From Coriaria nepalensis (lineage: Eukaryota > Streptophyta > Magnoliopsida > Cucurbitales > Coriariaceae), in the NCBI GenBank assembly GCA_027186245.1, contig CP114500.1, forward strand, positions 4,908,001-4,972,000: a stretch of 64,000 nt of DNA. The letters run 5' to 3'. The notes below the pieces were generated by a model. It saw only the letters and a program-made list of their open reading frames with translations, ran no database searches and was not told the origin of the DNA. Shown here piece after piece: positions 5,776 through 32,600 of the stretch. Each line of letters opens with the position of its first letter. Position 1 is the stretch's first letter. Both the position numbers and the translations under genes were made by a program.

Positions 5776-6669
5776 TTAGCCTTAATCATGGACATATTTG
5801 AAGCAACATCACTCTGCTTTTTAAAACTTGCAAAATAATCCTTACATTTCCTCTTCCAATGTCCAGATTCTCCATGGTGAAAACACTTTCCCTCTTTTAA
5901 CTTTTTTTGTCTTTCCATCACCCTTCTTTTCTTGGAGAACCCTTTTCTTACGTCACTTGCCAAGCTTAGCTTTCTCCTTCCTTCTAGAGGAGCTTCTCAT
6001 AAGCAACACATGTTTTTCTTTCTTGATGGAGTTTTTGGCCAGTTTTAGCATCTTATGCAAATCATGTAGCTCGGGCGGGTCCTAGCTTATTCACATGGAA
6101 GTTGAGCAAAAATGGAGTAAATGAATCAGGAAGTGATTGCAACACCAAGTTATTGATCAACTTAGAATCCATGACCAAACCTAGGTTCTAAAGTTATTCT
6201 ATATAAGCAATCATCTTCATCATATGGTCAATAACATATGTGCCCTTAGTCATCTTTATATAAAATAATGCCTTGGATATCTCATGACTTTCATTGTGAG
6301 TATCTTCACCATAAAAAAATTTAAGGTTATCAATAATCTCAACAACATGGATTTCTCATAGTAATTTTGTAGCTCGTTATTCATTAATGCAAGCACAATA
6401 CATTGCAGCTTATTATCTTACTCTTGCCACTTATTCCATGTAACCATTACTTCGACATCTGATCTCTCAGGTAGGACCTGCATGATCGGCTGATTCAAAA
6501 CATCAAACAAACATTCATATCTGAGAACAATTCTCAGATTTCTAAACCAATCTTTAAAGTTGGTTCCAACCAACCTATTTTGCTCAAGTATTAATTTCAT
6601 TTTTTTCAAACATTGCAAACTGTAAAACACAAGACCAATGCACATATTCTCCACAAAGATCATTTCCAA
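5763..6669 (-). pseudogene. Antisense Copia gag remnant with damaged CCHC knuckle
   Basis: On the minus strand, 6669-6418 reads a Copia gag N-terminal region (NRLVGTNFKDWFRNLRIVL, then YECLFDVL). After frameshifts, 5963-5763 reads KCFHHGESGHWKRKC, a zinc knuckle with the second Cys replaced by His. No protease or pol continues past 5776, where the opposite-strand LTR ends. The first dozen residues of the 6669 frame come from satellite sequence, so the original gag began nearer 6635. Non-functional. Confidence 0.8.
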
Positions 6670-9425
6670 GTTACGCAGAAAACTCGTGTTTGAAGTGCAA
6701 AAATATAATTCGTTCGAATTGTTATCAAATGATTTATTTATTTAAAAAGACTTATTAACATGATATTAAGGTTAAACAAATGCACAAGTGGATTCCATAG
6801 ATCACTAGAAACTTATAAATGAAATTCGTGTTTCGAGTGTGACAATAGAATCTATTCAAATTGCTTTCAAATGCTTTATTGACTTGAGGAGATTCATTGA
6901 CATGATTTTAATGTAGAACAAATGCATATATGCCTTCAAAAAACCATTAGAAAGATATGTTAAACTCATGTATGAGGTGAAAAAATAGTAATCGTTCGAA
7001 TTGATTTCAAATTATTTATTAACTTGAGGACACTCATTGAAAGGATTTAAGGTTAAACAAGTGCACATGTGCCTTCCAAAGATTTTTTACTAAGTTAGTC
7101 ATGAAACTTGTGTTTGAAGTGCAAAAATAGAATTTTTTTGAGTTGCTCTCAAATGATTTAATGAGTTAAGGAAACACATTACATGATTTAATGCTTAAAC
7201 AAATGGAGACGTTCCCCAAAAAGATCATTACCAAGTTATGCACAAAACTCGTCTTTGAAGTATGAAAATATAAATCATTCAAATTTCGTTCAAATTATTT
7301 ATTCACTTTAGGACACTCATTGATATGATTTTAAGGTTAAAAAAATGCACTTATGCCTACCAAAGATCATTACAAAGTTGTGAATGAAACTCATGTTTGA
7401 AGTGCAAAAATAGAATTCATTTGAATTGCTCTAAAATGATTTAATGACTTAAGGAGATACATTGACATGATTTCATGGTTAAATAAATGGAGGCATTCCC
7501 CACAAAGATCATTAGCAACTTATGCACGAAACTCGTGCTTGAAGTGTAAAAATAAAATTAGTTCGAATTGCTTTCAATTGATTTATTGAATTGAAGAGAT
7601 ACATTGACATAATTTTATCGTTAAGCAAATGAACACGTTCTTTACCAAGATCATTAGCAAGTTATGCATGAAACTCATGTATGAAGTGCGAAAATATAAT
7701 TGTTATCAAATGCTTTATTGACATAAAGATACTCATTGCATGAATTTAAAGTTAAACAAATGCACATGAGTTTGCTAGATATCATTAGCAAATTATGCAT
7801 GAATCTCGGGTTTGAAGTGTGAAAATTTAACTCGTGCAAATCGCTTCCAAATGATTTAATGATTTGAAGAGACATGTTAACATAATTTTATCGTTAAATA
7901 AATGCACACATTCTCCACAAAGATCATTAGCAAGTTATGCACAAAACTCGCGTTTGAAGTGTAAAAATAGAAATCATTTGAATTTCTATCAATAATTTAT
8001 TGACATGAAAACACACATTGATGTGAATTTAAGATTAAGCAAATGCACATGTGCCTTCCAAAGATCCTTAGCAAGTTATGCATGAAACTCGTGGTTCAAG
8101 TGCAAAAATATAATTATTTTAAATTGTTATCAAATGAGTTATTGACTTCAAGAGACTCATTGAAATTATTTTAACGTTAAACAAATGCACATGTTCTCCA
8201 CAAAGATCATTAACAAGTTTTGCACGAAACTCGTGTTTGAAGTACAAAAATCGAATTTGTTCGAATTACTATCAAATTAGTTTTTGATTTCAAGAGACTC
8301 GTTAACATGATTTAAAGATTAAACAAATGCACATGTGCCTTCCATTGATCACTAGCAAGTTATGGGGGAAACTAGTGTTTCAGGTGCAAATACATATTTC
8401 ATTCGGATGACTTTCAAATAATTTATTGAGTTTAGGACACTCATTTACGTGATTTTAAAGTCAACCAAATCCACACATTCCTTAGAAAGATCATTAGAAT
8501 TCTTTTAAAATGCTATAAACAGATTTATTAACTTAATGTGACTCATTGACATGATTTTAAGGTTAAGTAAATGCATACATACTTTTTAAAGATCTTTATC
8601 GATATATGCATGAAACTCATGTTTGAAATGCTAAATACAATTTATTTGAATTGATTTCGAATAGTTTATTAACTTGTGGAGACTCATTGAAATAATTTTA
8701 TGGTTAAACAAATGCATATGTGCCTTCAAAAAATTATTAGCAAGTTATGCATAAAACTTATGTTTGAAGTGTGAAAACATATTCGTTTGAATTAGTTTGA
8801 AATGATTTACTGACTTTAGGATACTCATTAACATGATTTTAAAATAAATAAAAAGCACACTGCCTACAAAAGATCAATCACAAGTTATGCACGAAACTCG
8901 TGTTTAAAGTGAGAAAATAGAATCTGTTCGAATTGTTTTCAAATGTTTTTTTGACTTTTGGATATGCATTAACATGATTTTAAAATTAAATAAATGCACA
9001 CGTGCCTATGTGTTAATTAGCAAGCTATGCACAAAAATCAGGTTTGAAGTGCGAAAATAGATTTTGATTGAAATGCTTTCAATTTATTTATTTACTTGAT
9101 GAGAGTCATTGACATGATTTTATGGTTAAACAAATGCACACGTGCCTTCCTAAGATCATTACCAGGTTATGCAAGAAACTTGTGTTTGAAGTGCAAAAAT
9201 AGGATTCATTGAAATTGATTTCAAATCATTTATTGACTTGAGGAGACTCATTGACATGCTTTTAAGATTAAACAATTATATGTGTGACTTCTAAAGATTA
9301 AACAAGCAAGTTATGCACGAGCATTATATTTGAATTGCAAAAATAGAAATCGTTTGAATTGTTCTTAAATTATTTAATGATTTGAGGAGACACATTGACA
9401 TGATTTTATGGTTCTTAGGCACACA
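6637..9425. repeat. Satellite-like tandem array, ~142-bp unit, about 19-20 copies
   Basis: A diverged unit recurs, anchored on the phrase AGTTATGCACGAAACTCGTGTTTGAAGTG split by variants. Anchor positions include 7233, 7375, 7517, 7659, 7790, 7932, 8073 and 8215, so spacing is 142 with occasional indels (131 and 141 also seen). Each unit also has an AAACAAATGCACA-GT-CCTTCC-AAGATCATTAGC part and a TTTATTGACTTGAGGAGACTCATTGAC-like part. Units differ by perhaps 15-25%, suggesting an old array. Short open frames inside it carry no meaning. Confidence 0.92.
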
Positions 9426-12430: not shown

Positions 12431-13480
12431 TGGACTTCATGTATGCCAACCAAGTTTGGACCTTAGAAGATGCAGTTGAAGGAATAGTTCTAAGAAAGTA
12501 AGTGGGATTCAAGTAATGTTCATTGTCTTACACATTGATGACATACTACTCATTGGAAATGATGTAAGAATGTTGCAAAACTTCTCTATGAAAGATATAG
12601 GTGAAGCATTTTCTGTATTAGGTATAAAGATCTATAGAGATAAATCTAAAAGATTTCTTGGCTTGATCCAATCCTCGTACATAAGCAAAGCACTAAAGAG
12701 GTTTAGTATGGAAGATTCCAAGAAATGACTATTGCCAATACGTCATGGAACCTCCCTCTCCAAGAAGATGTCTCCAAAGACACACAAGGAGATAGAAAAC
12801 ATAAATAGAGTATCTTATACTTCGGCCATAGGATCTATCATGTATGATACGTTATGTACGAGACTGAATGTAGCCTATGCTCTATAATGCTATGAGCAGG
12901 TTCCAAGACAATATGAGAGAACAACATTAGAAAGTTGTTAAGAGCATTCTTAAGTACTTGAGAATGACTAAAGATATGTTCTTAATTTATGGAGGGAACA
13001 ATTTGAAAATTAAGAATTTCACAGATCCTAGTTTTCAATCAGATCAAGATGACAATAAATCGACTTCAGGCTTTCTATTTGTGCTTAATGGTGGATCAGT
13101 AAGTTAGAAGAATTCCAAATAGAAGACTAGAGCAGATTCCACCACTGAAGCTAAATAAATAGTTGCTTCCAAAGTAGCCAAGGAAGTTGATTGGATGAAA
13201 AAGTACATTACTGAACTTAGTGTGGTTCCTAGCATCGTTGGCTTTGTAGTAGTATACTATGATAACAATGATGCAATGAAAAAAGTAAAGGAACTAAGAT
13301 CTCATAAAAAATCTAAACATGTGCTGCAACGGTATCCCCTAATCCGAGAGAGAGTCGAAAGTCAGGAGGTGGACATAGACGACAACATAGAGGATCCATT
13401 CACTAAGTTGCTTTCCCAACAAAAGTTTAACCACCATTTTATGAAAATGATGTTTCAATTGAGATACGATTGGCTTTAGT
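12431..13480 (+). pseudogene. Copia reverse transcriptase (internally deleted) and RNase H
   Basis: Sequence jumps from the region after integrase straight to the RT active-site block at 12516 (VLHIDDILLIGNDV; the usual YVDD Tyr is His), so the N-terminal half of RT is deleted. It continues with LGIKIYRDKSKRFLGL, SYISKALKRFSMEDSKK and decayed RNase H. At 13195-13479 is the RNase H tail (YDNNDAMKK, KHVLQRYPLIRERV, DNIEDPFTKLLSQQKF). Stops occur within the block. The LTR begins about 150 bases later. Confidence 0.85.
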
Positions 13481-13626
13481 ACAAATGAAAGATTAAAAGT
13501 GTATGTTCGTCAAGACACTTAGATATGTTTATTTAGGGCTATGCACTAATGAGATTCCATCTTATTTGTAATAATGATCAACACTTCAAATACTTACTGT
13601 ATTTCAATATGATATGTTGATTATAT

Positions 13627-15119
13627 TGTTGGAATAATAAAGTGCATGAATATATATTTATCTTAATGTATATGTTTGCATGATAAATTCTCGGATCTTA
13701 GATGATGCACTTTGGACCATGATAGTGATCATGCTCGATGAGATATAAGCCTAAGATCCAAATAGTTCATAGTCATAGAATTCTCATAGGTGATATTGAC
13801 AATCCGGGAAGATTATTGCATGGGGATATCTTTTTATTATAAGAATGATGTTTTCTCATAATCATCGATATTATCAAATATTGGGATAGATATGTGGGCA
13901 ATTTAATAGATGATTAAATCACTGAACATGATCACTTGATAACTCTCAATGGTAATGATAATTACTTTTAGTGAGACTTATCCAGTGACTATGGTACTTG
14001 TGATCCTTAAACTTGAGATCACCATAGTATTGACATGTGAGATAACATGCTTTGATATCGCTCCATGTGGTCTTAGCCAAAGACACTAAAAGGGCAAACC
14101 TTTGGGCATATGTTTAAGTATATACAGTCTATAGGGTGGTAAGATGTGATCCATCACCTCATTATCAAGAGGATACATTAAATGAAAGTTGTACCTTGTT
14201 TAACAAGAAATCTTTGCAAAGTAGTACGATCGGGAAAATATTTTTCCATAATTATATTGTCTTAGTGGCATAAGGAATCACATGATTCATATGATATGTC
14301 TATTGGGGTTTAATACTTAAACCATGCCCCATGAGAGATTAAGATTCAGTAAGAATAAAAGGATTAGTCGAGTATGATAATAGTCACTATAGGTTCTTTT
14401 TGATGTTACAAGATCTTCTTAAGATTATGGATACTTCTCATTATGTGGGTGTCTCATATGCTTTGCTAGAGGGCAATGTAGGTCTTGTGATTTAAGTTAA
14501 TCTAATCAAAGATGATGATCATATTAACTTATTGTTTTTAAAATGGTGTTTTCAAAGTCAAACGGTCCATTTGTAAAGAATGGATAAAACTCACAAAGTC
14601 ATTGTCAGGCCTACCTAGTGTGGGAATGTATAACCTATTGGGTCACATACATTAAGAACGATTGGATTATTGGTTATAGATCTAATCTTAGAGGAATTTG
14701 ACTCATTCTTAAAGAATTTGATTTAAGAGTTAAATCATTAATTTGTTTAATTTGTTAAGTCTAAATCAAACCTGCACTACTAGCACAACTAAAGTGTGAT
14801 TTAGATTTAATTAGAAATTACATAATTAATAAGTAAATTATTAAGTTGGCCAAAATACTTATTAAATGGGGATTTAATTATTACTAAGTCAAAGAATAAT
14901 TTATGGGTCAAAGGGAAGGTTCGATTGGACATTAAAGTGTTGATGGGTCTAATTGGACCCAAATGGTCAGCCCTAAATAAAAGTATGACTTTACCTGATA
15001 AAGTTGGAATTTATTTTGGAATAATATAACAAGAGGATTCATAATTACAGTTGTACCCCCCTAGGTATCATTGCTACGAAAATCCTTCTTCAAATCAAGA
15101 TAAGAGTTTAGAGCCTTCC
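13627..15119 (+). repeat. Copia 3' LTR, first part
   Basis: Begins TGTTGGAATAATAAAG at 13627, the same start and distance from RNase H as the LTR at 4121. The following order (initial block, GACCATGATAGTGATCAT-like block, long AT-rich U3) parallels that LTR with heavy divergence. Homology appears to be cut by the LINE-like block from about 15120 and to resume after 15828. The outer end is uncertain. Confidence 0.6.
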
Positions 15120-15828
15120 TCCTCCTCCTTCGAATGCAGACCTTGACATTTGGAATTCTTGGAATGGTATATCTCTTTAATCCCCCTCTTGTTTGCCTCT
15201 AGATTGCCTATTTTTCCTGATTGCCTGTTTGTTGGGTTTGATAGGTGGGGTCCCCTTTATGGCCTCCTTGGAGTTTTTTCCCCGTATTTCTTGTATTTTG
15301 TGTCAGCTGCCTTGGGTTTTGCTCTTCTTGTGGATAATAGGTGGGGTCCCCTGGGTGGCCTCCTTGGGGTATGCCCCTCGTATTATTTTTTCTTTTGTAG
15401 CCTTGATTTTGCAGGCTTATATTCTTTGTATGTGGATAGTGGCCCCCGTTGTGGTCACACTGGGGTATACCCCTTTGATTTGCATTTCGGGCCCCCTCGG
15501 GTTTTTCCCCCACTGGGGGTTTTTTCACCCAAGTGTAATTTTGTTCTTTACGCTATTTTTATGGGGTATGCCCCTTTTTGCTATAATGGGGATTTCCCCG
15601 GTTTTGCCCTTTGGGCTATTTTCTGTTTCTTAGGTTGGATTTGGTCTAGGTGTTGGTCGCCTTTTTTTTAGGATGTTGTATTCTCTTGTTTCCTTAACGT
15701 GAGCTTGTTCACCGTGCACTTGTAATCTACTTTTTTTGAAATATATACTCCTTAACGTGAGCTTGTTCACCGTGCACTTGTAATCTACTTTTTTTGAAAT
15801 ATATACTTACCTTTCAAAAAAAATTGTT
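15120..15828 (+). mobile_element. Possible LINE (L1-like) 3' end inserted in the LTR
   Basis: This block is GC- and T-rich, unlike its AT-rich surroundings, with repeated GGTGGGGTCCCC and GGCCTCCTTGG phrases. It ends in an A-rich tail (ACCTTTCAAAAAAAA, to about 15823) just after a duplicated segment. That resembles the 3' UTR and tail of plant L1 retrotransposons. An open frame of 173 aa at 15150-15671 is rich in F, L, G and P, but I recognise no domain and doubt that it codes. Target-site duplications were not found by eye. Confidence 0.35.
15692..15807. repeat. Exact 58-bp tandem duplication
   Basis: Two apparently identical 58-base copies (15692-15749, 15750-15807) start CCTTAACGTGAGCTTG and end GAAATATATACT. 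The identity implies a recent duplication close to the A-tail. Confidence 0.95.
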
Positions 15829-16599
15829 TTATTAGTTGTTTCCGAAAGTCGGAATATTAAATTAGAAAATAAAGCCTGAGCACCTAATTAAAGGGATTTG
15901 GGCTTTGGGCCCAAGTTACTTGTCTATATAATAGAACAACCTGAAACCCTAGGCTCCTACCCTAGCTTGTGCAGCCATTAGAGAGAGAAAAAGGAAAGAG
16001 CCTCCATCTTTTCTCTCAAGCCATTTCCCTCCTCTTTTATGATTGATTATCAATAAAGAAATGACCAATGAATTTTCATCCTAATGGAATCAATAGCGGT
16101 TGGGTAACGACATCGAAATCCAGTGAAGAGGTGATGGCTAGCAGTGGAGACGCAACAACGGTGGTGGTGGGCGAAACTCCCGTGGATGGAAATCTAATCG
16201 GATTTCAAAGGAGAAAGGAAGGTTATTCTTTTCAGTTTCATAAACATGATAGATGATCTAGGTTTTCAAAACATTTTCTTTCCAGATGCTTAAAAAATGG
16301 CCTAGTATCTTGGTAGTAGTCTTTCATCTAGATGTCATGGGTCAATTTTTTTGAAAACGGGTTTGCCCCATGATGTGTGAAGGATCCTTTGACTTGCAAC
16401 TTCTTCATAATGTTAAGCTTAGAAACTATGTAACAATGTCTTACATAGTGCCTTCTAAACGTTATAATGAATTTGAGATTAATAATTCATTTAATCGGCT
16501 TTGGATATATATGGGTTAGTGATTTATTAATCAATGAGTTTATTTGTTTTTAATGCATTAGATGCATGTGATCATAATATTCTAACTATATCCGACTCT
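15829..16599 (+). other. LTR continuation and small unassigned open frame
   Basis: Contains TATA-like CTATATAATAGAAC near 15923 followed by CCCTAGGCTCC, as in an LTR promoter and start region, which suggests the Copia LTR resumes here. An open frame at 16068-16256 (62 aa, with a VMASSGDATTVVVGETP stretch) has no family I recognise and most likely lies in LTR or adjacent sequence. The rest is AT-rich with nothing further to report. Confidence 0.35.
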
Positions 16600-16740
16600 A
16601 AACGCATAGCGGGTAAGTTATCTCAAACCGAGAACTCGGTCTAAGTTCCAAGTCTAGGATCACCAAAATTGGTGAAGCCAAACCAAGAATTCAGACTGAG
16701 TTCTCAGTCTGGGATCTTAGATCTCGTTCTAAACCAAATT
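16600..16740. repeat. Degenerate GAACTCGGTCTGAGTTC-type repeats, upstream copy
   Basis: Several related short phrases (GAGAACTCGGTCTAAGTTCC, GAATTCAGACTGAGTTCTC, GTCTGGGATCTTAGATCTCG) lie just before the Ulp1-like gene. A larger block of the same kind is at 21695-22075, between the two facing genes of the Mutator-like element. Confidence 0.65.
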
Positions 16741-18439
16741 ATTTACTATAATTGTTTCATTTTTTGTGTAATTAATTACTACTTTATGCTTGCTTTTAGG
16801 GCAGGAGTTACCTCAACTAAAACCGATCGTATGTCGTGATCATTATTTTTGCTGCACGATTACTTTACAAACAAGGCTACACAAGGTGATTAAGAAGATT
16901 AAAGAGATTAAGGAGAAATTGAAAGCGAGAGAGTTGGAAATGTTCAGAGCGTCATGCTTTGGGCATTTCTTGAATTTAGATCCAGAATTATTTTTCTCCG
17001 ATCATTTAACCTTATCCATGATACTCCGTCTAGTTAGGGCCCTAAAGAAGTATGAGGCATGGTTGTCCATAAATGGTCATCCTCTCATGTACTCACAATA
17101 TGAGTTCACTCGTCATTGGATTGAAGTGTCACAATTCATCAGTTGTACCTTATAAAATACTAAATAATATAGAACTGGTGGACAAATACTTGGAGGGGAG
17201 GGGGGGATGAATTTTACATGTGGTGATTTATGGACATGATCAACAAATTCCCTAAAAGTAAAAGGAGTGCAGATCTTATTAAAAGGGAGAAGGTTAAAGA
17301 AGAGAAGGTAAAATTTGTCCTTTTCTTCTTGGTGTCTACTTAGGTAGTTAAGAAGAATAACTTTGAGGATAGTTACATATCTATTGTCTCGGACTTAGAA
17401 TTCTTCAATAGTTATCGTTGGGGTAAATCAACATACAAGAGAACCATCAAATGCATAAATAGGGATGACCTCGAGAAGAGGGCTAACACTCGTACTAGAA
17501 GAAGAGATGGTAAGGATTAGACCATAGATTTATGCAGTTTTTCATATAATTTTTAGGTAATTATTACTCTCAATTAGACTTTAATTAAATAGAATATTTC
17601 TATTATTTCAGTTTGGTTTTTGTTAATACTTTTTAAATTACTTTACATGTATAGGCTTTTGTAGCTATTTCCAACCTTAGAGAGAGATTTGAGATTCATT
17701 TAGAAAAGACTGGTAGGTCATGAATCCTTAGCTAGGGGACAAAGAAATCGGGGCATGCAAATATGTTTATGCCATTGTACAACAAGATCACAAAGACTTT
17801 ATATAAAGCAAAGGTTAGCTTCTATGGTATTTTTTTGACTATAATTACTAAATTAATAGACCTTCACCAACTCTTAACATTAAATATATATGTTAGAATG
17901 CATGAAATCTTATAGGCATTAACATAAGAGGAATTTGAGTCTTATATCATCATTGGCTCATTCAACAATAAGGAGAAGTATGTAAATGTAGATTATGTGA
18001 GGGCCGCACTAAATGAGATAGGGGAGAAAGAGGAAGATATTAAAGAAGATGATATATTTCGAGATAAAGTGGAAGAAGATGGTGGGGACGAGGATGTTTG
18101 AGAGGTAAAGGAGGAGTATGAGGAAGATGAAAAGCAATGATATTCTCCACCTTCATCGAGAAGTAGACGTAGTGGCAGACTCTTAAGTGGTGAGCTACTA
18201 GATTTCATGTCCAGGATAGAAGGGAAGGCAGATGATCTAAGCTAGAGAGTGGGGGAACTCAAGCATAGGTTCGGGGGCCTAGAGTACACCGTCAGCAAGA
18301 GATTGAGGGGGTTGGAGTATGTCATTGACGCGATCAATCATAAATTAGATATGGTCTCTCGGCCTTTTAGCTGATGATAAGGCTCCTTCACAGCAAGGCT
18401 GTGTTGGGCATGTTATGTTTGATGAGCATGAAGAATATA

Positions 18440-20110
18440 TATTTTTATTTTTGCCCAGTAGCTGCACTTGCCGATGTCCTAACAATTGGCCCCGATAAGT
18501 AATTGCTTATTATTTTTAAAGTTCTCTTTTTAATATTAATTAATTTTTTAATCATTTAATATTTTTAATTAATTATTCAAATTTTTTGGTATGTATGTGT
18601 CGATCCCCCCCTTCCTCCCCGCCACTAGACAGGAGGTCCCATAAAATGTTGCTATAGATGATGTCGTAATAATTGGACCTTGTAAATAATTAATTTTCTA
18701 TTTATTTCAAATTTTATTTTTCATATTAACAAATTTTTTAATCACTTAATATTTTTACATTAATTATTCACATTTTTTGGTATGTAGGTGTTGATCACCC
18801 CTCACTAGAATAAAGGTCCCAATAAATGCACCTATGAATGATGTTCTAGTACTTAGACTCGTAAGTAATTAATTTTGTATTTATTTTCATATTTTACTCT
18901 TCATATTAATTAACTTGTTAATCACTTAATATTTTTAAATTAGTTATTCATGATTTGTGGTACGTAGGTCTCAATCCCCCCCCCCCCCCCACTAGATTTG
19001 GAGGTCTCGGCAAATGCACCTATGGATGATGTCCTGATAACTGTACTCGGTAAGTAATTAATTTTGTATTTATTTTCCTCTTTTATTATTCATATTAATT
19101 TATTTTTTAATCACTTAATATTTTTTAATTAATTATTCATATTTTTTGGTATGTAGGTGTCTATCCCCCAACTAAACATGGAGGTCCTAACAAATGCCCT
19201 TATAGACGATGTCCAGGTAGCTAGACCGGTAAGTAATTAATGTTATATTTATCTTCGTATTTTATTTTTCATATTAATTAATTTATTCACTTAATATTTT
19301 AAATTAATTATTCATGTTTTTTGTTATGTAGGTGTTGAGCCCCCCTCCTCACTAGACATGGAGGTCTTAGAAAATGCACATACGGATGATGTCTCGGTAG
19401 TTAGACCTAGTAAGCAATTAAATTTGTATTTATTTTCATATTTTGTTCTTCATATTCATTAATTTTTTTAATCATTTAATATTTTTAAATTAATTATTCA
19501 TATTTTTTGAAATGTAGGTGTCGATCCTTTTCCCCCCACCACTAGATATGGAGGTCCTGACAAATGCACCTATGAATGATTTTCCCAGTAGTTGCACCCA
19601 ATAAGTAATTAATTTTGTATTTATTTTTGTGTTTTAAAATTAATTATTCATATTTTTGGTATGAAGGTGTTGATTCCAACCCCCCCCCCCTCTCTCACTT
19701 AGACCATGGAGGTCCTGACAAATGCACTTGCCGATGATGTCTTGATAGATGAACCCCACAAGTAATCAATTTTGTATTTATTTCCATACTTTATTCTTCA
19801 TATTAATCTTTTTAATCACTTAATATTCTTAAATTAATTATTCATGTTTTTTGGTATGTAGGTGTCGACCCCCCCCCCCCCCAAAACTAAACGTGAAGGT
19901 CCTGACAAATGCACATATAGATGATATCCTAGTAGCTAGACCTAATAAGTAATTATTTTTGTATTTTATTCTTCATATTAATTAACTTTTAAATCACAAT
20001 ATTTTTAAACTAATTATTTATGTATTTTAGTATGGAGGTCCCGAGAAATGCACTTATGGATGATGTCTCGATAGTTGTACCCCTATAAGTAATTAAATTT
20101 ATATTTATTC
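18440..20110 (+). repeat. 180-bp tandem exon-intron units, about nine copies
   Basis: Units recur at about 180 bases (AATGCAC-type anchor near 18643, 18824, 19012, 19192, 19372). Each has about 70 bases between an acceptor-like TATGTAG/GTG and a donor-like GGTAAGTAATT, then about 110 bases of AT-rich intron-like sequence. The exon-like part can be read as a peptide with PPLDMEV, then TNAPMDDV, preceded by a C-tract coding prolines. C-tract length varies (15 in the 18961 unit), shifting the frame in some copies. I infer repeated duplication of one exon plus its intron. Confidence 0.85.
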
Positions 20111-20811
20111 TCATATTTTATTCTTCATATTATTTATTTTTCTAGGGGAGCTGGAGATTGTAATGGTAATGGTCATGATGTAGAGAGCAATCGTAGCTAT
20201 GCGACGCCATATAGCAAGTTTGGATAGTTGAGGAAGAGGAAGAGGAGTTACTATCTCAAGTCTCCTTATTTGAAACCAAAGCAGATTCAACAATACATGA
20301 AGCATAAAGTGTTGATGTTAGATCCATTTTGTGAACCCAATGATGCCACTGGCAAAGCTATTAGGAAATGGGTCATTCAGAAAAAAGCCCTTAATGTCAA
20401 ATTGTTAACTAGGGAGAAGGCCGCTAAAAATATTTTCAAGACATTAAAGCCCCTTGGAGATTCGTTGTGGAGCAAAGTAAGTATTTTTATTTTTATAATT
20501 CTATTAAATTTTTTAAATTAAACTTCTTTGTTTACATAGCTTATGAAAGTATTGAAAACAAATTAATGAAGCACTGTTATTAATCTGGAGGTGATACAGA
20601 AAGTTCCCTCAAATGTTCCCTCATCTTGAAAAAAACTCGGTGGCAATTTTAGATGACCTCTTTAGCTTTATGCTCTATGGAATGAGAAAGGAGGCATGGG
20701 GTCTAGATAACGAATTATTCTTCAGGTATACATTGAAATTGAATCTTATGGTTTTGTTAGCAAAATCGTTTTGATTTAATGCAATATGTTATATGTTTTC
20801 TTAGGTACATC

Positions 20812-20862
20812 ACGGGATAGGGGACGAGGGGACGAGGGGAGAGGGGGGGGGGGGGCAGGAAT
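20812..20862 (+). repeat. G-rich tract, G-quadruplex-prone
   Basis: Several runs of three or more G, including GGGGACGA repeats and one run of about 12-13 G, interrupt the protease part of the Ulp1-like pseudogene. Four or more G-runs with short loops fit the G-quadruplex pattern. Confidence 0.8.
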
Positions 20863-21339
20863 CGCACGGGAGGATGTGCATACCGTATACTTTCCTCTCA
20901 ATATTAGAGAGGTACACTAGATTGCTTTAGTTATGAACCTCACTTCTTGGACTATATATCTCATGGATTCAAAGGAAGATTTGCCAGAAACTAGATGATC
21001 TTACTACTCGAGTCATGGAGTATAATCATAAGTTGAGGAGGAAGTACCACCATAAATTGAAGCATCCATTTGAACCAAAGAAACTCGAGATACCTCAAAG
21101 TCACAAAACTGAGGATTGCGGGGTATAGACTATCAAGTGCATAAATTTTCATATGATGGGATTTCCATTATGTAATGTAAACGTTGATCGCATAAAGTTC
21201 TATAGGCGTAAGGTGATGATAAACATTTATAGACACATATGGGACATGTAGCTAAAAATGTTTTACACGTTCTATGTAATTAAATAATATAATATGATGT
21301 CTTTTCTATTTTCTACATGTTCTATATAATTAAATAATA

Positions 21340-21690
21340 TAATTCATAATCTAAAATACTATAAGGTCTAAGGCTTAGATTTTAATTCATAATCTAAGGT
21401 TAGTGTGTTTATTGTTTAAGATCTTATGTCTAGTGCTTATGGTTTAATAATTAACGTGTAAAGTTAAGAGTTTAGGGTATAGGTTCTATGGTTGAGGGTC
21501 TAGGATTTGGGTTTATGCTTTAGGATTTAATGTTTAAGGTTTGAGATTTAGGATTTATGGTTTAGGGTCTTAGGTTATTGTTTACAGTTTATGGTCAAAG
21601 GTTAGTGTTTATATTATAGGTTTTAGGGTTGAGAGTCTAGGGTGTAAGGTTTAGGGTTTAGAGTTTATGATTTAGGATATTATTAGGGTT
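21340..21690. repeat. Degenerate telomere-heptamer-like repeat
   Basis: Many near-copies of TTTAGGG/TTTAGGA/TTTATGG (for example TTTAGGGT, ATTTAGGATTTATGG, TTTAGGGTTTAG) are spaced by a few bases, without a regular seven-base run. This looks like a low-complexity patch derived from, or convergent on, the plant telomere motif, not an internal telomere. Confidence 0.65.
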
Positions 21691-21694
21691 TGAG

Positions 21695-22075
21695 TATTAA
21701 TCGGGAACTCGGTCTGAGTTCCCAGTTTACAGATTGAATACCAATCTCTCGACCGTAAAATCAGACTGAGAAATTGGTACGATTTCCTGGTCCAGATTGA
21801 GAGCTCGGTCCCGATTCATGATCAAGAGACTAAGTTCTTGGTCTAGAAAGTCATAAGCATATTTATAAAAATCCGGATCGAGTACTCAATCCCAGTTCTG
21901 GATATAGAGATCAAGTTCTCAGCCTAGCTTGACTACTTAGTCTGAATTCTTGATCTAAACCGATTTCTCGATCGAGAAGGTTAGAAACCCATGTTTTTTA
22001 CCTTCTTGACTGAGAAGTCGATCCTTATTCCTGATCTAGAGATCGAGGTCTCGATCTAGAGTGTTAGAAACATGA
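21695..22075. repeat. Degenerate GAACTCGGTCTGAGTTC-type repeats, central copy
   Basis: About 12 loose copies of phrases mixing CTCGGTC, CTGAGTTC, GATCTAG and TTCTCGATC. Related to 16600-16740. It sits between the 3' ends of the Ulp1-like and mudrA-like genes. No coding signal. Confidence 0.65.
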
Positions 22076-22269
22076 TTTCTTAAAAGTTATGTTGAGACAA
22101 AAGTGCTTACAGTGTATTACAACCAATAAAATAGTAAGTCATTCACTATACAAAAATAATACAACCAAGTCTATAAATATTAAAAAGTTCATTAAACATT
22201 TTCAATAAATGGTGGTGGAGTCGGGTTCTGATATGTCTTCTTATTGTGTCCAAATTTACTATAGTTGCC

Positions 22270-22982
22270 ACATTTTCTTCTCCTTCATGTTTATTCTCTT
22301 GTTGAGGGAATACATATTTTTTTGGTCTTCCACTCTATTGGCGCATGATAGGTGATAGAACCTTCATCATCCAGATCCCTTCTAGAAAATCCCACTTGTC
22401 GTTCAATGGTACAAGCAAAAATTAAGTCTGCATACGCGGCCCTCCAATTCTCAATCAAGTAAAATTGTGAACATAACGTATAAACATCCATATTATTTGA
22501 CCTCATTATTGCTATGACATGAGAGCACAATATCTTATCTATGTCAAAACCCTTACTTGTGCAAGTCATTGCACCTAAGTTTACAAAGGCATTAGTAGCA
22601 CCACCGGTAACCTCATATGTAAACCGGACCACAATATCAATGTTCATTGTTGATGATTTTTCATGTCTTGTCCTTAGCAATTTCTCTACTGTGGGAGTGT
22701 ATCGGTGGGTATGTTGATTGACTGCATTTCTTCTAGAGTTAACCTAAGTCATCATCATTTTCGTGATACTGTCAAGTAAGGTTACAATTAGATATTCATG
22801 TGGATCCTTGAATGTAGCGTTATGTAACTTAAAATTATTATTTTTCATAATATCATATCTAAAACCAATGAAATGAACTCCGAATAATTATTCAAATCTA
22901 ATTTCCTCTTGGTACATAGCTATACCAAGATATAATGCTCTAATTGAAAGTGTATTCCCGTCAAGCCAATCATATTTTGACC
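22270..22982 (-). pseudogene. Mutator-like (mudrA) transposase, C-terminal part
   Basis: The minus-strand frame 22680-22291 (129 aa) carries a SWIM-type region: KGFDIDKILCSHVIAI, then a YTLCSQFYLIENWRAAYADLIF block typical of plant MuDR transposases. Upstream, to about 22982, it reads ATFKDPHEYLIVTLLDSI and NSRRNAVN with one stop. The first Cys pair is C-T-S instead of CxC, so zinc binding is doubtful. The catalytic core is missing because a Copia fragment begins at 22983. It faces the Ulp1-like gene, a known arrangement in Mutator-like elements carrying Ulp1 genes. Confidence 0.85.
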
Positions 22983-23135
22983 TGATAGGGCAAATACTTT
23001 ATGTGATACTATCTTTATGTGGATATTAGCAAGATATTATTTATTGTCATTAATGAAAGTCAGTTACTATTTATCATGTTTATTGATTTTGTTGAAAATA
23101 ATATTTATGTTATATATATGCATATCATGATACAT
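22983..23135 (+). repeat. Copia fragment: end of internal region plus LTR start
   Basis: Closely matches 4013-4155, including AAATACTTTATGTGATACTA and the LTR start (TGTTGAAAATAAT here). It breaks off within the LTR. Its left edge marks the truncation of the mudrA-like gene. Confidence 0.8.
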
Positions 23136-24639
23136 AACAAATGTCAGGTCTTATGTAATCCCCGCCCTACTAGTTGTTTAGCTTATCGAATACTTTTAAA
23201 GGAAACATGTAGAGCTAGTAGGAGTATTACTTTAAAATTCAACTTTTAAAAAAAAACTGACAGAAATAACATAATTATTTAAGTTTCTTATAAAATATAA
23301 TTGAAATCCTTATCATAGAGAAACAAATTCCCAAAACATTTAAAAGAAACCCCTTTCTTTATTAAAAGGTATATATGTATATGTATGTAAGTTTGTCTAA
23401 AGAAGTGTGGACTTTCAAGCCCAATGTTTACACAGGTCATGTCTTGTATGGACAACTTCACGGGATAGATTGTCTTCATTCATCCGCTCCTTAGCTTATA
23501 GCCTTACCTTCATAATTCCCTACAACACAGGGTGACCACCTATGAGCTACAAGCTCAGTAAGGATATGGTCCTACTCACATTAATAATCTTTTAATGATT
23601 ATTTTAAATTAATACTTTCATGACTTATATCTAGCATGCATGAATTCTTATTCTTCTACATGCTTAGGCCATGAGGATGCTGCCGCTAGCATATCAACAA
23701 TATCTCATTAGCAGTCCGTTTATGACCATTGCAATGATTTGCTTATAACCTTTTCTTTAACATTATTTAGGGTCTTTTATGATCGATAATCAATCCTTCT
23801 TTTTAACTCAGCAACACCTCACTTTAATATTATGCATATGCATACTTATGATTCTTATTCATTTTGGAAAAAATGCTTATGATTCTTATTCATTTTAGCG
23901 TAACATTAACTTCTAAAAATATGAACATATGCATTTAATCGTAGCATGTTTAAAGCTTATATTATTCTTAAACCATCATGCTATACTATGTTCATACTAG
24001 TCATAAATCTTATTTCTATCATAGTAATAACATCATTTCATTTATACCTAAGATGCTATATGACGATTAAAATCTTAACATTTATCATAACAACAAGCAA
24101 ACAAGTAATATCTCTGCATTGTAGTGAGACTACACTTACAGATCTTTATGGAAGGTTGAAGCTCCTAATCTCATTTTCCTTCTTACTCCCTTTCTTCGTC
24201 CTTCTCTATATTTTTCTTTCTCTTTTCCTTTCCCTCTTTCTTTCCCTCTCTTCTCTTTCTTTCCTCCCCGTTTGCCTTCTCTCTTTCTTTCTCTCCTCTC
24301 ACTCTCTCTTCTCTTCACTTTGTCATAAATGCATTAGGGGGGGGGGGGTTATGTAGTAAAATGTGAGATTTGAAGTTGTTGACACATGCCTATGCTTATG
24401 TTGTTGTTACCAAATGGTAATAATGTGGCACACTTTTATTTATTTTTCATTAGTATTATTATTGTTGTTGTTGTTTTTAATTAAACTTAAGGCCCGATTA
24501 AGTCTTAAAAATTATTGAAAGATCTCCAACTATTTCTATCATTAAAATTAGGTATAGGTAGGAAGTAAAATTTAGTAGAAACCCCCCTTTAAATCTCTTT
24601 TCCCATTATTATGCCTAGTTTAGAAATATTGGGGTTTTT
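23136..24639. other. Possible LTR fragment and CT-rich microsatellite
   Basis: A phrase near 23525-23565 (CACCTATGAGCTACAAGCTCAGTAAGGA) read on the minus strand resembles phrases I associate with plant Ty3/Gypsy LTRs, and 24350-24640 is similar in style; this is a weak call. Positions 24175-24325 form a CT-rich low-complexity tract (CTTTCTCTC type), and a run of about ten G lies near 24339. No credible gene; the open frames here are low-complexity by-products. Confidence 0.35.
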
Positions 24640-26275
24640 ACATCATGTACACAACATGGCATACATAAGACTACCTACAACTGTGGCATAGGGAATCTGT
24701 CTCATTCCTTCTTCTTCATGAGGTGTCTTTGGATACTGCTCTTTAGAAAAAACTATTCCATGTCTGGTCGATAATTAACCCTTCTTGGAGTTTTGCATTG
24801 AGAATTAAGCCATCACTTTATCTGCATAAGAAGCTTGAGACAGTGGCAAAAACTTGTTCTTCCTATCCCTTAGGACTTTGATTCCTAGAACATAGCTTGC
24901 TTCTCCCAAATATTTCATTTGGAATTGTTGGCTAGCTATTTCTTCACGTTTGACAAGGTCTTTACATCATTTTCATTAATTAAAATATCGTCTACATAAA
25001 GAACTAAGAAGACCACTTTCTTATCTTTGATGTGTTTATTATAGACACATGATTCTTCAACATTTTGTTCGAAACCATATGTCTTGATAGTCTCATCAAA
25101 CCTTAGGTTCCAAGACCTAGAAGCTTGCTTCAACTCATAAATAGATCTAAGTTACTTGAAAATCTTTAGCTCTTGGCCTTTTTGCAAAAAACCTTCTTGT
25201 TGCATCACGTAAATGCTCTCTTCAAGATAGCCATTCACAAAAGTTGTCTTGACATCCATTTGCCATATCTCGTAGTCTAAACTAGCAGTTATGGATAAAA
25301 GAATGCATATAGACTTTAGCATAGCAACGAGAGAGAAGGTCTCTTCATAATCGACTCATTCCCTTTGGGTATAGCCCTTTGCTACAAATCGTATCTTGAA
25401 AGTCTCTACTTTCCCATCTATGCCTCTTTTCTTTTTGAAGATCTATTTACATCCAATAGGCGTGGCATCTTCAGGTGGAAATACATGGATTCCATTTCTT
25501 AGTTCATCGCATTTTGCTATTTATCCTTGTCAGAATCATCCATTACCTTCTCAAAAGTTAATAGATCATCATGGTTTATGTCTGACACTAAAATATGTGC
25601 CTTGTGTTCATAACGAATGGGTTATCTCACGATCCTCCTACTATGATGAGATACTAGAGTGTTCTGACTAGGATCAATGGTCTTCTGATATTTTCGTTCA
25701 TCAAATGGTGGTTGAGATAGTCTGATCTAATAATAATTCAATTCCTCTAGTATTATCTTACTACGAGGTCTGCAGTTTATCATATAGTCATGTTCGAGAA
25801 AGGTTGTATTTGTCAATACAAACACCTTTTTCTCACTAGAACTATAAAAGTAACATCTCCTCGTGCTAGGAGCATGGCCAATGAATATGCAAACTTCAGA
25901 TCGTGTGACACCCCTATATGCGAAAATGACGTAAAGTAGGTTTAGTGTTATTCCACAACTCTAAAGGTGTCTTTTGTACAGACTTAGATGGAACTAAATT
26001 TGAAATGTATATCGTGGTTCGAAGTGCATATCCTTAGAATGTGAATGGTAGAGATGAGTAGCTCAACATTAACCTAACCATCGTCAATAAGGTTTTGTTT
26101 CTCCTTTCCGTAACAACATTATGCTTTGGTGTTCCAAGTGTTGTAAGTTAGGACAAAATAGCATACTCTAGCAAATGATCCTTGAACTCAAAATCAAGGT
26201 ATTCACCTTTTTGATCTAATCGAAGTGTTTTTAAGTGATTTTTCTAATTGCTTTACAGTTTCTGCTCGAAATTCC
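24640..26275 (-). pseudogene. Antisense Copia pol fragment: integrase end and RT
   Basis: Minus strand, from high to low coordinates: integrase end near 26200-26090 with shifts, LELWNNTKPTLRHFRI near 25960, the region after integrase, an RT start (VAKGYTQRE near 25360, then DVKTTFVNGYLEE), and 25133-24936 with LKQASRSWNLRFDE and an intact YVDD (LVLYVDDIL). It stops at 24645 inside IPYATVVGSLMYAMLCT, so RNase H and the 3' LTR are lost. Several stops. It belongs with the LTR at 26876-28636; gag and protease are deleted between leader and integrase. Confidence 0.85.
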
Positions 26276-26279
26276 TAAA

Positions 26280-26858
26280 CTCTTTTTGGGCCGACCGGAC
26301 TTATTTGGGTCAAACCCAACAAGTTCTTTAGTTTTTCAAAAAATTCAAAATTAAGTTCACGGGCCTAAAATACATTATTTTTGGGTCTCAAAATAAATGG
26401 GTCAAACTCCTAGGGTTAGTCATAGGCTGCAGCGGCGCGCGCTGGCCGGAGCCAGTGGTTAGGACAATCGCTGATTTGACCAATGGCCTTGTGCCGTAGA
26501 ACTATCCCGCAGCTGGGCTTCCGCGGGACCATCCCGCTGCTGGGCTTTCGCGGGACTATCCCACGGCTGCTGTAGTGGGACTAACCCGTTGCATGCTACT
26601 TGCAGCGGCGCTACCCCCGGTTGTGTCAAATTTTATAAAAAAACAATTGTACGAAAAATGATTTGCCACAAATCGACTTACACAAATCCTAAAGAAAGAA
26701 AATTAAAGAAATTCCTAACTCAAAATTACCATACAATTAACGATCCACTATATTATCAATACATTCAAAAAACATAACATCTATTCAACTTACATATCAT
26801 ATATATATGATAATGCAAGAATCCCACAGATTGATTAATTTATATATATATAAAGACC
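26280..26858 (-). other. Copia leader with GC-rich 27-bp minisatellite
   Basis: Lies between the primer-binding site and pol of the antisense element. A 27-base GC-rich unit (ACTATCCCGC-GCTGGGCTT-CGCGGG type) starts at 26501, 26528, 26555 and, degenerate, about 26580. The GC content is unlike the surrounding DNA. No gag is recognisable. Confidence 0.6.
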
Positions 26859-26873
26859 GCTCTAATACCAATT
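26859..26873 (-). other. Primer-binding site for initiator tRNA-Met
   Basis: The minus strand reads TTGGTATTAGAGC just inside the LTR, one mismatch from the usual plant TGGTATCAGAGC. This fixes the adjacent LTR as the 5' LTR of an antisense Copia element. Confidence 0.75.
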
Positions 26874-26875
26874 AT

Positions 26876-28636
26876 TGGTAAAAAGGTTTAAAATTTTGCC
26901 TCAGAAATAATTAATTTGGTCCCAGTGTATAACAAAAACTTTTAAAAATTTTTTTAGTGATCCTTTAGATATATATAAATTAATCACATAGTTATGAGAA
27001 GAGATCATATCTTAGCCTATGCGAATTGTTCGAGGAGACTCACACCATGATCTTACAGATCGATCCTCAATATATTAGGACGTGTGCGCACGTAGAGATG
27101 ACAATTTTTTTTCTCTTTTTATTTTAGTGAAAAAGGCTCTATATTTTTCGCATCATGAAATAATTAGAACATGATGTATTTATAGAGTTCTATTAGGTTT
27201 TTAAATTTAATTTAATCACTTTAAATTAATTAAATTTAATCATAATATTTAAATGACAATATAATCATTAAATGATATCTTTGATATGATCAAATCTTTT
27301 CAAATCTGATCTAAAATAAAATCTTATCTATTTCAAATCATATCATATCTTTAATGATATATTTGATTCAATCGAACCTTTTCAAATCTTATTTAAAATT
27401 GAATCTCATTTATTTTAAATCAAATCATATCTTATTTGAATTTTAAATTAGTTTCTTAAATCAATTTAATATTATATATAACATATTTAATTCAAAATCA
27501 AATATATTATTATTTAATATATGAATTTCGAAATTCATCATTTAAAATACATCTTTTAATTAATTAGTTAGCAACAATTATCATCTCATAATTACAAATT
27601 TGCCTTAAAAAAACTATTTTCTTGCAAATAAATCTATTTTTCAACCTTTGTCATTCTTGCAAATAAATATTTTATAGAAGTGATCTGGGCACCATGGACT
27701 TATAATTTCAAGCTCCAATAAATTAGATTATTAATTAAACTTTTTAATGCAATACATCTTATTTTTTAATTACAATATTATTCCATTAAAAATATTAGAT
27801 TGCACTATTGCAATTATAAAACATATTACTGAGTAATCTCTAGTAGTCCATTGATATTGTCATTACATGCAATCTAATCCTCAAATAATTGATTCATAAT
27901 TAGAGCTAGTCAAAATTATTATTTTACTCCTCTAATTATCTCTTTATCCTTAAGTACCATTAATCCACCAGTGAACGGTCAATTTATGACTTAATTATAA
28001 ATTTGAGCTAAAAAATATTAAGTTCCAAAATTAATACTCAAAGGAACCAATGTACAATTTTCTATGAAGAATGTTTGGATTTCATATCTGTAAATCACAT
28101 TCTCAACCATTTATCTCAATGAATCTCCAAAATAAAAGTCTTTAGCCTGTTTTACAAATAAATCGTGACGAGTGAATCAAAAGATCCATTTGACATAAAC
28201 ATGAATTTATGACTACTCATGATTCAGATTGATTTGCATATGATGATCATCTATTGATATGAGTAGAATTCTTTATGGAAAATAATATTTTAATAAGAAT
28301 TATTCATATCGGGTCCTGCCATATATGATTATTATATAAAACACATCCACTAAGATGTCTCTCTACATTAGTGATTAGAATCTAGATTACTTACATTCAT
28401 AATACTAGCGGATTGTACTAGTAACCATCAATTAAAGATTTCATACTTTAATATGTTGCAGATAATTTAATTTATTATCTATAATCTGAATCATCTTGTA
28501 TCAATACAAAATTATAGTCACATAAATAAATTTGGATTTTTTTGATATTTATACATTCACAATAATTATATAGAAAAATATCACTTTTATTAATTTATAA
28601 AACTCATCAAATATTTTCAGGGCATCATGTCCAACA
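26876..28636 (-). repeat. Copia 5' LTR, about 1.76 kb
   Basis: On the minus strand it starts TGTTGGACATGATGCCC (28636) and ends ..TTTTACCA (26876), giving TG...CA termini next to the primer-binding site. Very AT-rich. Its mate is missing. The outer end lies about 1 kb upstream of the HMCES start codon. Confidence 0.75.
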
Positions 28637-29460
28637 TTACCATGCATCGTACCTCTTTTTTTACTGAGTTTGACGGAGGATCAAAATACTGACTATCTAA
28701 GCAGAAAATGAAAACCCATTATCAATTTTCAAAAAATGGCCAAAACATGATTTACTAAATATTTTCAGTTTTATAATTAAGGTTTTTCTTAATTATATAA
28801 ATTACCTCATACAACTTTGAACGAACACTAATCATGCAAGAAAAATGATTCTCAGACTTCAATACTCGGACAAGTGTAGGTGATCTATCCTCGTGAAAAC
28901 AATTAAAAAAATATTCAATTTATTTAGATACTCCATTATCTTATGAAATAACAATATTTCGCATTGAGAAAATGTCCCAATTTGAGATACTAGAATCGAA
29001 ATTTGATTTCAATATGCATGCACAAGATTTCTGACCGAAAATCAAATTTTACAAAAGTCAAACTCATACCGAAGTTTCTCAAAATCAGATTTTAGCAATC
29101 AAATTCAAATTTAGATTTCACATAATTAAATCTTTAACTTTAATTATAAATATATATCGCGCAATTTTCATATTCTTTAAACTAATATTCTTGGTTATCC
29201 TCTATTAATGTTGTTGATGATTTCAAATTTGAAATTCATGAGTGATTTCAGACATGCATTGTGGTGGGTGGTTTCGCAAGGAGAAAGGGAGAGACCGTTG
29301 GAATTGAGTCCAAAGAAGACGAAGAATATACAGAGTGATATAAGTTTTATAATCTACCGTTTTAATGTTAAGAATATTAATGTCCTTTAACTTTTTTAAC
29401 GTCCGAAAAAAAAAAAAATCGGCAAAATAACTATTAAGAGGGTTAAATTATCATTCGCCG
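28637..29460. other. Intergenic DNA between Copia LTR and HMCES
   Basis: AT-rich with no recognisable gene. A 60-aa open frame at 29208-29390 has no family similarity that I can see and lies where the HMCES promoter should be. Confidence 0.4.
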
Positions 29461-29470
29461 ATGGACTCTT

Positions 29471-29477
29471 TATAAAT
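29471..29477 (+). promoter_or_regulatory. Putative TATA box of HMCES
   Basis: TATAAAT lies 197 bases before the ATG, followed by GC-richer sequence fitting a 5' UTR. The distance is reasonable for a plant gene; there is no transcript evidence. Confidence 0.45.
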
Positions 29478-29667
29478 TAGTCTGGAGTTTCCCGCTTGTA
29501 ATACAATAGCACGGGCGGCTACATGTACCGACAAAGGTTTCGGACAGCGAGAACCGGAATCTCGAAGAGGAAGTTGGAACGGGGATCTCTTCACCTTGTA
29601 CAAGAAACCAGTAGATAAACATCAGTCTTCCTTCCGCCTCTGTTACTTGAAGAGATGATCTAGAAAG

Positions 29668-32600
29668 ATGTGTGGGAGGGCCCGATGCACTCTAAGGGCT
29701 GAAGACGTTCCTACGGCTTGCCACCGCAATAATGGTCCCTTTCGTTCTGTTCATATGGACCGGTACGGACCCTATCAATCCCCTCTTAGATTCTTTGTTT
29801 CTTCGACTGCTTGCTTTTTATTTTACTATTTCGTATTTTCTCACTAATCAAACAGGTATAGTTTTTTGAAACGCTGATTCTCATTTTTCGAGTGTTTCTC
29901 GAAACAGGTATCGGCCTTTATATAATGTCTCGCCAGGATCGAATTTGCTTGTTATTCGTAGGGAGGAAGGTTCAGGTGGTGACGATTTCATCCTTCATAG
30001 CATGAAATGGGGGCTGGTTCCCAGCTTCACCAAGAAAACTGAGAAACCTGATCACTTCAAGATGGTACTTCAGTAATTTGATGCTTATTGTTCTTCTTGA
30101 TCTAAATGAATGCTTACTCTTTCAAATAAGAAATCCAAAGATTATTAACATGATGGACGTATAGACTGCAACTTTAATTCATCCCTTACATGTGCCAGCC
30201 TATGTGAACAGGGTTGAATGATTAGTTAGAACTTAATAGTTGATGTAATCTAACATGAAATCGGACAAATGTGAATGCATTGGGCCTTGGCCTTCTGCTG
30301 CAGGAGAAGCTTATTTGATGAGGACATAGCTATTATTTTTAGGTCTAAGAAATGGCATTTGTTTGACAGTTCATAGTAATATATAGACGATACAGTTTGG
30401 CATTTGTTTGACAGCATATTCATACCATACTACTTTTAATATAGTTTGAAATCATTCTAGGATTAATGGATGTGAGTTGATGCATTTCTCTATCCTTGAA
30501 GAGTCTGGATGAGTTATCTCAGAGGTTTCATAGGTTTCCAAAGGTGGTATTCAAAGTCGATGGGAATTAGAAAATGGAAATTATTAGTGGTATGTGGGAA
30601 GAAGGCATCCAAGTTTTTAGGTTCCACCAGTTAGGACGGAAAATTCCTTTTGAACTTTTGAAAGAAGGTTAGATTAGAGGTTTTTTGGTCACTGAATCCT
30701 GCTTAAAAAATTTAATAAGTTTATCCCTGTTGATTTTGCAGTATATTTTAATCATCGTTCGTGAAAATTTTACATATGTGCTTGGCCACTAAGATTGTAC
30801 CAAGTCGGAAGATGAAAGACACTGAACCAAACAACTTGTATGATTCTTTTTGCACATAAGAATGAAAAATAAGAAAGTTAGTCTTAGAGGATTATGCTTT
30901 GGACTTTACCTGCATTTGATATTCATTATTTTTCTTTGTTCATTTTTGTTGACAATAATTTAAATATGTAATAAACTACTATGCTTGTATGGTATCAAGT
31001 TTGAAAATGAAATTGATGGCATCAAGGAGTTTGCTTTTTCTTTAACTATTTAAACTCTTATGGTTATTCCTTTTATTGAGTAATTGTATTTTGACGGAAA
31101 AAATATATGCGGCAACAGGGTAAATATAGATTTTATGAAACATTATTTTAGAAATTTTGGGTTAAAGCTATATAATTTCCCTGTATAAACGTGTCTATTA
31201 TTAGGTGCTAGTCAGTTTTCTTGACTAGCAAACTGAGAATAATTATATGGATGTTCTCTTATTCTTTATTTATCTATCTATTCTTCATTTGATCCATGTC
31301 ATGCATCACTATGTGCCGGACCTGCCGGTAAATAATCTTTATTTTGCATTATAATAATCTGTATTTGGTCATCTTTTCTGATTGCGAGTTGTGTGATTAT
31401 AAGATAAAGACTCTTGGTTTTGGCCAACCAATGAGATAAAAGTGTTCAATTCCCAATATTTTTTTTTTCTTTACCTTAAAAATCTTCTTTGATGCGATTG
31501 TAGTTCAATGCTCGGTCTGAATCTATTCATGAGAAGGCTTCTTTTCGTCGTCTAATCCCTAAAAATCGGTGCCTTGTATCAGTGGAGGGGTAAGTTCAAT
31601 AGCATTAATTCACTACCGTTTTTAAGTTCAATATCACTGATAGCAATTGACAGGTTTGTGTCTTAGCTTTCAATCGGCCATAAAATTTTCATAAAATATT
31701 GTGGGTGTAAATATCATTTAGTCCAAACATCATGCAAAAGTATTATCCTCTATTTTCCATTAACTCTTCAAGAATGGTTATGTAAAGTTGTAGTCTTACT
31801 ATAATCTTAGAAATTATGGAGGTCCGCCTATAATTTATAGAACATAGTGTCTAGTATATCCTATCATATTCAAAGAATTAAAATAAATTCTAGGAAGTCC
31901 AAGATAAATAAATAAATTAATTAAAAAAAAAGACATACACAGGATAACATTACTAAATCTCTATAAGCAGTTGTTTTAGAATCAAATATAGAAATCAAAA
32001 ACTCAAATTGAAAAACTCACTTCTAACTTTTTATTCATAAAACTTGATAGATCAAGCAAACAAACAAGGAGAATCTTTTACACATTTCTAGTATAGGAAC
32101 CAGTAAATCTAAATAAAACACATGAAACCCACACAATTAGTGGCAAATATGAAAAAACCAAACACAGTTCTAAAAGCGACCCCATGTTCTAACAAACATC
32201 TTGGCACATGATCATCAGAAATCAATGCAGATAAAAGCAAAGAATGGAATAAAGAAAATAAATCGAGTTGATGGCTTTAAAGGCTTCGATTGGAGCAACT
32301 TGAGTTGGTCCAAGAATGACCCGAGCAAGAGTGTGAGCCATGAGCTGAGCTCGACAAGAACAAAGAGGCATGACAGAGAGAAGCAAAAGGCATAAAGAGG
32401 AAGGCAAGCAGGAAGAATGATGGAGGCTCGTCAATTTCAAGGATGAAGAAGATGAAGTAGCAGAAATGGAAGAAGCCAAAACAAGAACGATGGAGACCAT
32501 CTCCCTCTTATTGTGATTTTTTTTGACGAAACTCCATCCATTTAGATCACATACGAAAGCTTTGAACTCACAAGGGCGGTCCTCACAATGAAAGAGATCA

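Follow-up and report, generated by a model that had tools for sequence, protein, structure and literature searches.

A decayed tandem array of exon-like and intron-like units that separates DUF1985 from Ulp1 in a transposon-type gene

Introduction

Can a gene carried by a transposon lengthen a protein linker by multiplying one short exon together with its intron? A first-pass annotation of a 64-kb window (the whole stretch of DNA analyzed here) raised this question. Between the DUF1985 and Ulp1 protease parts of one gene it placed an exon and its intron, amplified in tandem about nine times, and it proposed that the copies, if spliced, supply a linker of variable length. Working tandem exon duplications are expected to retain splice sites and frame.

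Results

The array was found by Tandem Repeats Finder, self-comparison, autocorrelation and alignment. Tandem Repeats Finder reported a period of 180 with 5.5 copies (75% matches, score 1001) at positions 18617-19627, and self-comparison recovered the exon core nine times and the donor-side intron part ten times. The autocorrelation at lag 180 was 0.413, whereas 50 Markov sequences reached at most 0.350 anywhere between lags 100 and 259. In the alignment, from which the limits were taken (the start, 18461, was set by hand), eight full units of ~180 bp and one truncated unit at each end span ~18461-20145. The 180-bp repeat is real and above chance, and the about ninefold amplification held up in the self-alignment that had been proposed as its check.

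When the window was scanned on both strands with consensus sequences (≤25% mismatch), the exon was found at 8 places, the acceptor at 7 and the donor at 7, all within the array and none outside it, at a sensitivity limited enough that some array members were missed too. A tRNA scan of the window yielded none, and a 27-letter pattern had zero exact matches in viral contigs.

All units lie on the plus strand. The array opens with a truncated unit, U0 (18461-18596, the hand-set start included), in which an exon-like 3' half (18461-18494) with AT at the donor is followed by intron-like sequence. U1 (18597-18787; exon-like 18597-18681, intron-like 18682-18787) has the donor GT, has lost the acceptor AG and contains one in-frame stop. 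Both AG and GT are kept in U2 (18788-18967; exon-like 18788-18860, intron-like 18861-18967), which has one in-frame stop, and in U3 (18968-19156; exon-like 18968-19049, intron-like 19050-19156), U4 (19157-19331; exon-like 19157-19228, intron-like 19229-19331) and U5 (19332-19517; exon-like 19332-19409, intron-like 19410-19517), whose core frames are free of stops. The acceptor AG is also kept in the next three units: U6 (19518-19666; exon-like 19518-19600 with a 1-nt insertion, intron-like 19601-19666 with an internal deletion; donor AT), U7 (19667-19861; exon-like 19667-19757, intron-like 19758-19861; donor AC, one in-frame stop) and U8 (19862-20029; exon-like 19862-19944, intron-like 19945-20029; donor AT, core frame without stop). 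The truncated U9 (20030-20145) closes the array: its exon-like part (20030-20084) has neither the unit acceptor nor the C-tract, its donor is AT, and its intron-like part (61 bp), the last in the array, has a 3' end unlike that of the other units. Full units, each beginning with its exon, measure 149-195 bp and share 64-86% pairwise identity over their whole length. Their exon-like parts are 72-91 bp long and their intron-like parts 66-108 bp, mostly ~105 bp, the shortest being the one with the internal deletion.

The two parts differ sharply in composition: from U1 to U9, GC content is 49% in the exon-like parts vs. 14% in the intron-like parts, which are 55% T. The switch coincides with splice-like borders, GTAAGTAATT-like on one side and TATGTAG-like on the other (GTAAGT/TATGTAG). 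Such borders are expected of a short plant exon next to a U-rich intron. The consensus of the exon core translates as EVLTNAPMDDV, and the length of the C-tract differs among units, as had been annotated. In the nine exon copies the core frame holds 3 stops in 229 codons, while the two remaining sense frames have 31 in 229 and 17 in 226, respectively; since the copies share ancestry, this open frame counts as one observation of ~25 codons rather than nine. The low stop count in the core frame, together with the splice-like GC switch, makes it plausible that the ancestral unit was an exon plus an intron, in agreement with the look first ascribed to the unit; the label "exon" is used here on the strength of these sequence signals.

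The array lies within a gene that is itself in pieces. The 5' part of the host gene (16883-18371, plus strand) is decayed and distributed over several frames; a three-frame reading locates DUF1985 at ~17024-17451, followed by an acidic, coiled-coil-like linker. The 3' part (20146-21248, plus strand), whose start takes the first AG as acceptor, consists of a linker and then Ulp1 (Peptidase_C48), with more introns, frame breaks and stops. With the pieces joined and X placed at stops, DUF1985 (PF09331) was detected at E 5.5e-10 (39.8 bits, Pfam cut-off 35.1) before the array, and Peptidase_C48 (PF02902) at E 6.6e-13 (49.4 bits, cut-off 20.7) after it. A single open frame of DUF1985 taken by itself reached 15.9 bits, which is below the cut-off. 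Both parts of the gene contain stops and breaks in the frame. Judged by these domain matches, the host is a decayed DUF1985-Ulp1 gene with the array between its two domains, where it had been located originally, and since DUF1985/Ulp1 element families are involved, the DNA is probably of plant origin. Protein relatives were absent at E 0.001 among the 7992 candidates sharing most words, in a collection that may hold few plant proteins, and at E 10 among 11 candidates, a result that says nothing on rarity in plants.

Downstream, on the minus strand, an open frame at 22294-22743 resembles a SWIM-like zinc finger (PF04434, E 0.004), its 17.1 bits falling below the cut-off of 19.6. The frame converges on the Ulp1 gene and probably encodes the C-terminal end of a Mutator-type transposase, although the match is suggestive only. 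The open frames tested contained no further transposase domain. Because the SWIM match is below cut-off and stands alone, it is chiefly the DUF1985-Ulp1 pair that points to the type of element. A search for inverted pairs of at least 40 bp (seed 11) found none in 12500-30000; the copy is decayed and the element ends were not found. The layout agrees with that of VANC/KIU genes of VANDAL-type Mutator elements, with thin evidence for the transposase. Beyond the putative transposase remnant, two Copia-type reverse transcriptase pieces (RVT_2) lie at 24939-25355 on the minus strand, and beside them is an SH3-like piece (25730-25960) just below cut-off.

If the array worked as a coding device, every copy would be spliced, each would add ~26 residues, and copy number and C-tract length would tune the linker. 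Seven of nine units have the acceptor AG, five of ten have the donor GT, U2-U5 retain both flanking sites, and in six of the nine exon copies (all except U1, U2 and U7) the core frame runs without a stop; these features speak for such an array. Successive exons mostly do not join in frame, however: by a hand count from exon phases, the core frame continues across 2 of 8 joins, about the chance level. The donor is also poorly kept. The annotation had treated the exon border GGTAAGTAATT as a donor common to the units, which is too uniform a description: at the first donor base, five units (U1-U5) carry G and five (U0 and U6-U9) carry A, and this column is the most variable on the intron side of the donor, while the bases that follow the donor GT, AAGTAATT, are nearly invariant. 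Lack of conservation of splice sites, which had been named in advance as a point against the exon reading, is what we observed for the donor, and less so for the acceptor.

Loss of the donor as one inherited block was considered and found no support, because the unit tree needs 4 changes vs. a mean of 3.7 after shuffling, on a tree that is nearly unresolved. In the maximum-likelihood tree of units, none of the seven inner branches was starred and six were open, and the median end branch was 0.13. The units are about equally diverged, and their tree is star-like.

The exon copies evolved as though their protein sequence did not matter. Variation is lowest at third codon positions, where protein constraint would have left it highest (P 0.95 for a third-position excess; 47 core columns, 9 units). 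Relative to the consensus, 17 changes are synonymous (22.8 expected) and 55 nonsynonymous (50.7 expected), the expectations being those of the same spectrum placed at random, with the changes in the last two columns counted in them too. Sets of 72 changes were also simulated (2000 runs), and a synonymous count of at most 17 came up in 11% at omega 1, in 0.25% at 0.7 and in none at 0.5; these frequencies indicate that neutrality fits the exon copies and that moderate constraint does not. The codon test covers 9 units and 47 columns, assumes a star tree, and required one base to be dropped from one unit to hold register. With frame lost at most joins, no purifying constraint on the exon copies and stops in the DUF1985 and Ulp1 parts, a working exon array is highly improbable. 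A continuous spliced linker cannot be produced from the array in this copy, and the proposal of a spliced, length-variable linker has to be abandoned for it.

The lack of constraint, the star-like divergence and the varying C-tract lengths would also suit a simple minisatellite that expanded after the element had died and never was the repeated exon of a living gene. The age of the decay argues against it. The exon copies (3/229) resemble the typed gene model, with its 12 X among 700 residues, in stop density, a rough comparison because the model was pieced from open stretches. This similarity suggests that array and gene death are of similar age, roughly estimated, and the array does not look clearly younger than the death of the gene. 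We regard a minisatellite of this kind as rather unlikely.

On average, the intron parts are 85% alike and the exon parts 71%, the exon value including the poorly alignable C-tract. This contrast could be taken to mean that the AT-rich intron part was what was multiplied, as a noncoding binding target for the element's own VANC-type protein, with the exon part carried along. In the Arabidopsis work, introns are reported to contain tandem repeats of VANC target motifs, and noncoding parts to be bound by VANC21 (PMC5735166). Much of the contrast is explained by composition, however. In the exon core, cells change at rates that depend on the consensus base (G 26%, C 22%, T 14%, A 6%), and the exon/intron odds ratios were 1.7 at A/T sites (P 0.06) and 1.8 at G/C sites (P 0.10), with 8 of the 9 introns used. 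Conservation of the intron by function was discarded on this ground. The known VANC21 and VANC6 motifs are not concentrated in the array: none of the window's five VANC21 motifs lies in the array, and one of its seven VANC6 motifs does, in U9. The excess of C-to-T and G-to-A changes fits the decay of methylated DNA, methylation being the presumed cause. T-to-C changes are likewise common in the exon core, and since T sites also change (14%), the decay is not purely driven by C and G.

Candidate protein-binding sites are found elsewhere in the element. Seven 16-bp near-palindromes, GAYYGAGWWCTCRRTC-like and without strand, lie at 21699-22056, in the interval separating the Ulp1 gene from the transposase remnant, and two further GAYYGAGWWCTCRRTC-like copies lie at 16626 and 16694 (stretch 16626-16709), in noncoding DNA that, with the former stretch, flanks the DUF1985-Ulp1 gene. 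At ≤3 mismatches the near-palindrome occurs at 12 places in the window, 9 of them in these two noncoding stretches, whereas 40 Markov sequences averaged 2.7 matches and never exceeded 8; a related, non-degenerate form matched nine times, at 7 places, where 0.07 matches were expected, for a pattern that was picked after being noticed. When 8-mers were compared without bias, the element minus its array showed no clear motif relative to the remainder of the window. The cluster is a candidate set of binding sites for an element protein, and its location in noncoding parts other than the array, together with the motif counts and the compositional origin of much of the contrast, makes multiplication of the array as a protein target improbable.

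Other repeats were observed in the window. Degenerate 7-bp GTTTAGG (telomere-like) repeats occupy 21470-21676 (30 copies, 64% matches), with the Ulp1 gene on one side and the transposase remnant on the other. A second diverged tandem array, with a unit of 141-142 bp, extends over 6654-9413 in rows of 13.1 and 6.3 copies (71-72% matches). At 1777-2681, a 240-bp tandem repeat (3.8 copies, 91% matches) is less diverged than the 180-bp array, and a 22-bp ATATATACACATATGCATGTAC repeat is found at 38452-38662 (9.6 copies, 97% matches).

Discussion

We demonstrate a 180-bp tandem repeat of exon-like and intron-like make-up, lodged in a DUF1985-Ulp1 gene and decayed along with it. The best explanation, which we hold to be probable, is the tandem multiplication of an exon with flanking intron sequence in a VANC/KIU-like gene, followed by decay. 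The fossil part of this explanation is also part of the target-array and minisatellite readings, so our degrees of confidence in the three overlap and need not sum to one.

Under the favored explanation, the starting segment would have been one short exon with parts of its flanking introns, in the DUF1985-Ulp1 linker of a VANC/KIU-like passenger gene. This segment would then have been multiplied in tandem inside a VANDAL-like Mutator element, presumably by slippage or unequal crossing-over, most likely at or close to the time when the element ceased to be active. The units would have decayed thereafter without protein constraint, mostly by C-to-T and G-to-A changes. From the sequence we infer the type of element, the mutation mechanism and an ancestral, living gene in which the unit was spliced as an exon.

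A bolder version extends to intact relatives. There, the unit might be a spliced, frame-keeping exon of fast-changing copy number, the ~26-residue linker repeats might shift the target specificity of the VANC/Ulp1 protein, and the AT-rich introns might co-multiply as matching DNA targets; we give this proposal little credence. If relatives with an intact array exist, they would allow a test of whether exon-intron multiplication drives fast change of VANC proteins. The present copy adds one DUF1985-Ulp1 case and, as a fossil, proves no function.

A literature search for DUF1985 with tandem repeats found one relevant report (PMC5735166) and a paper on MET1 over-expression; further reports may exist. 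Arabidopsis VANC genes are reported to contain tandem peptide motifs and to show changes of exon/intron structure associated with tandem repeats (Hosaka et al., 2017; PMC5735166). The introns of VANC21 and VANB21 are reported to carry repeats that a VANC-type protein binds (PMC5735166), and the link between exon/intron repeat changes and VANC specificity is offered as speculation (PMC5735166). This precedent weakens the annotation's view that the repeat is unusual. A narrow search for repeated exons in plants found no report, and searches for tandem exon duplication brought up general papers; other reports may exist.

Three known systems are close to the locus. (i) The VANC genes of Arabidopsis VANDAL elements are likewise DUF1985 genes in Mutator-like elements (PMC5735166); in contrast, the gene analyzed here also has an Ulp1 domain, is dead and has no known binding or hypomethylation activity. 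(ii) In non-TIR MULEs an Ulp1 gene lies opposite to the transposase (PMC13317346, PMC2528002), and the KAONASHI/KIU genes of these elements likewise encode an Ulp1 protease domain and run opposite to mudrA within the MULE (PMC2528002, PMC13317346), whereas here the transposase is a weak SWIM remnant and the element ends were not found. (iii) In tandem exon duplications with mutually exclusive splicing (PMC9013439) an exon is tandemly copied too, but splice sites and frame are not kept here. By analogy with the first of these systems, the array is best read as a fossil example of an already reported habit of VANC genes, real and largely ordinary.
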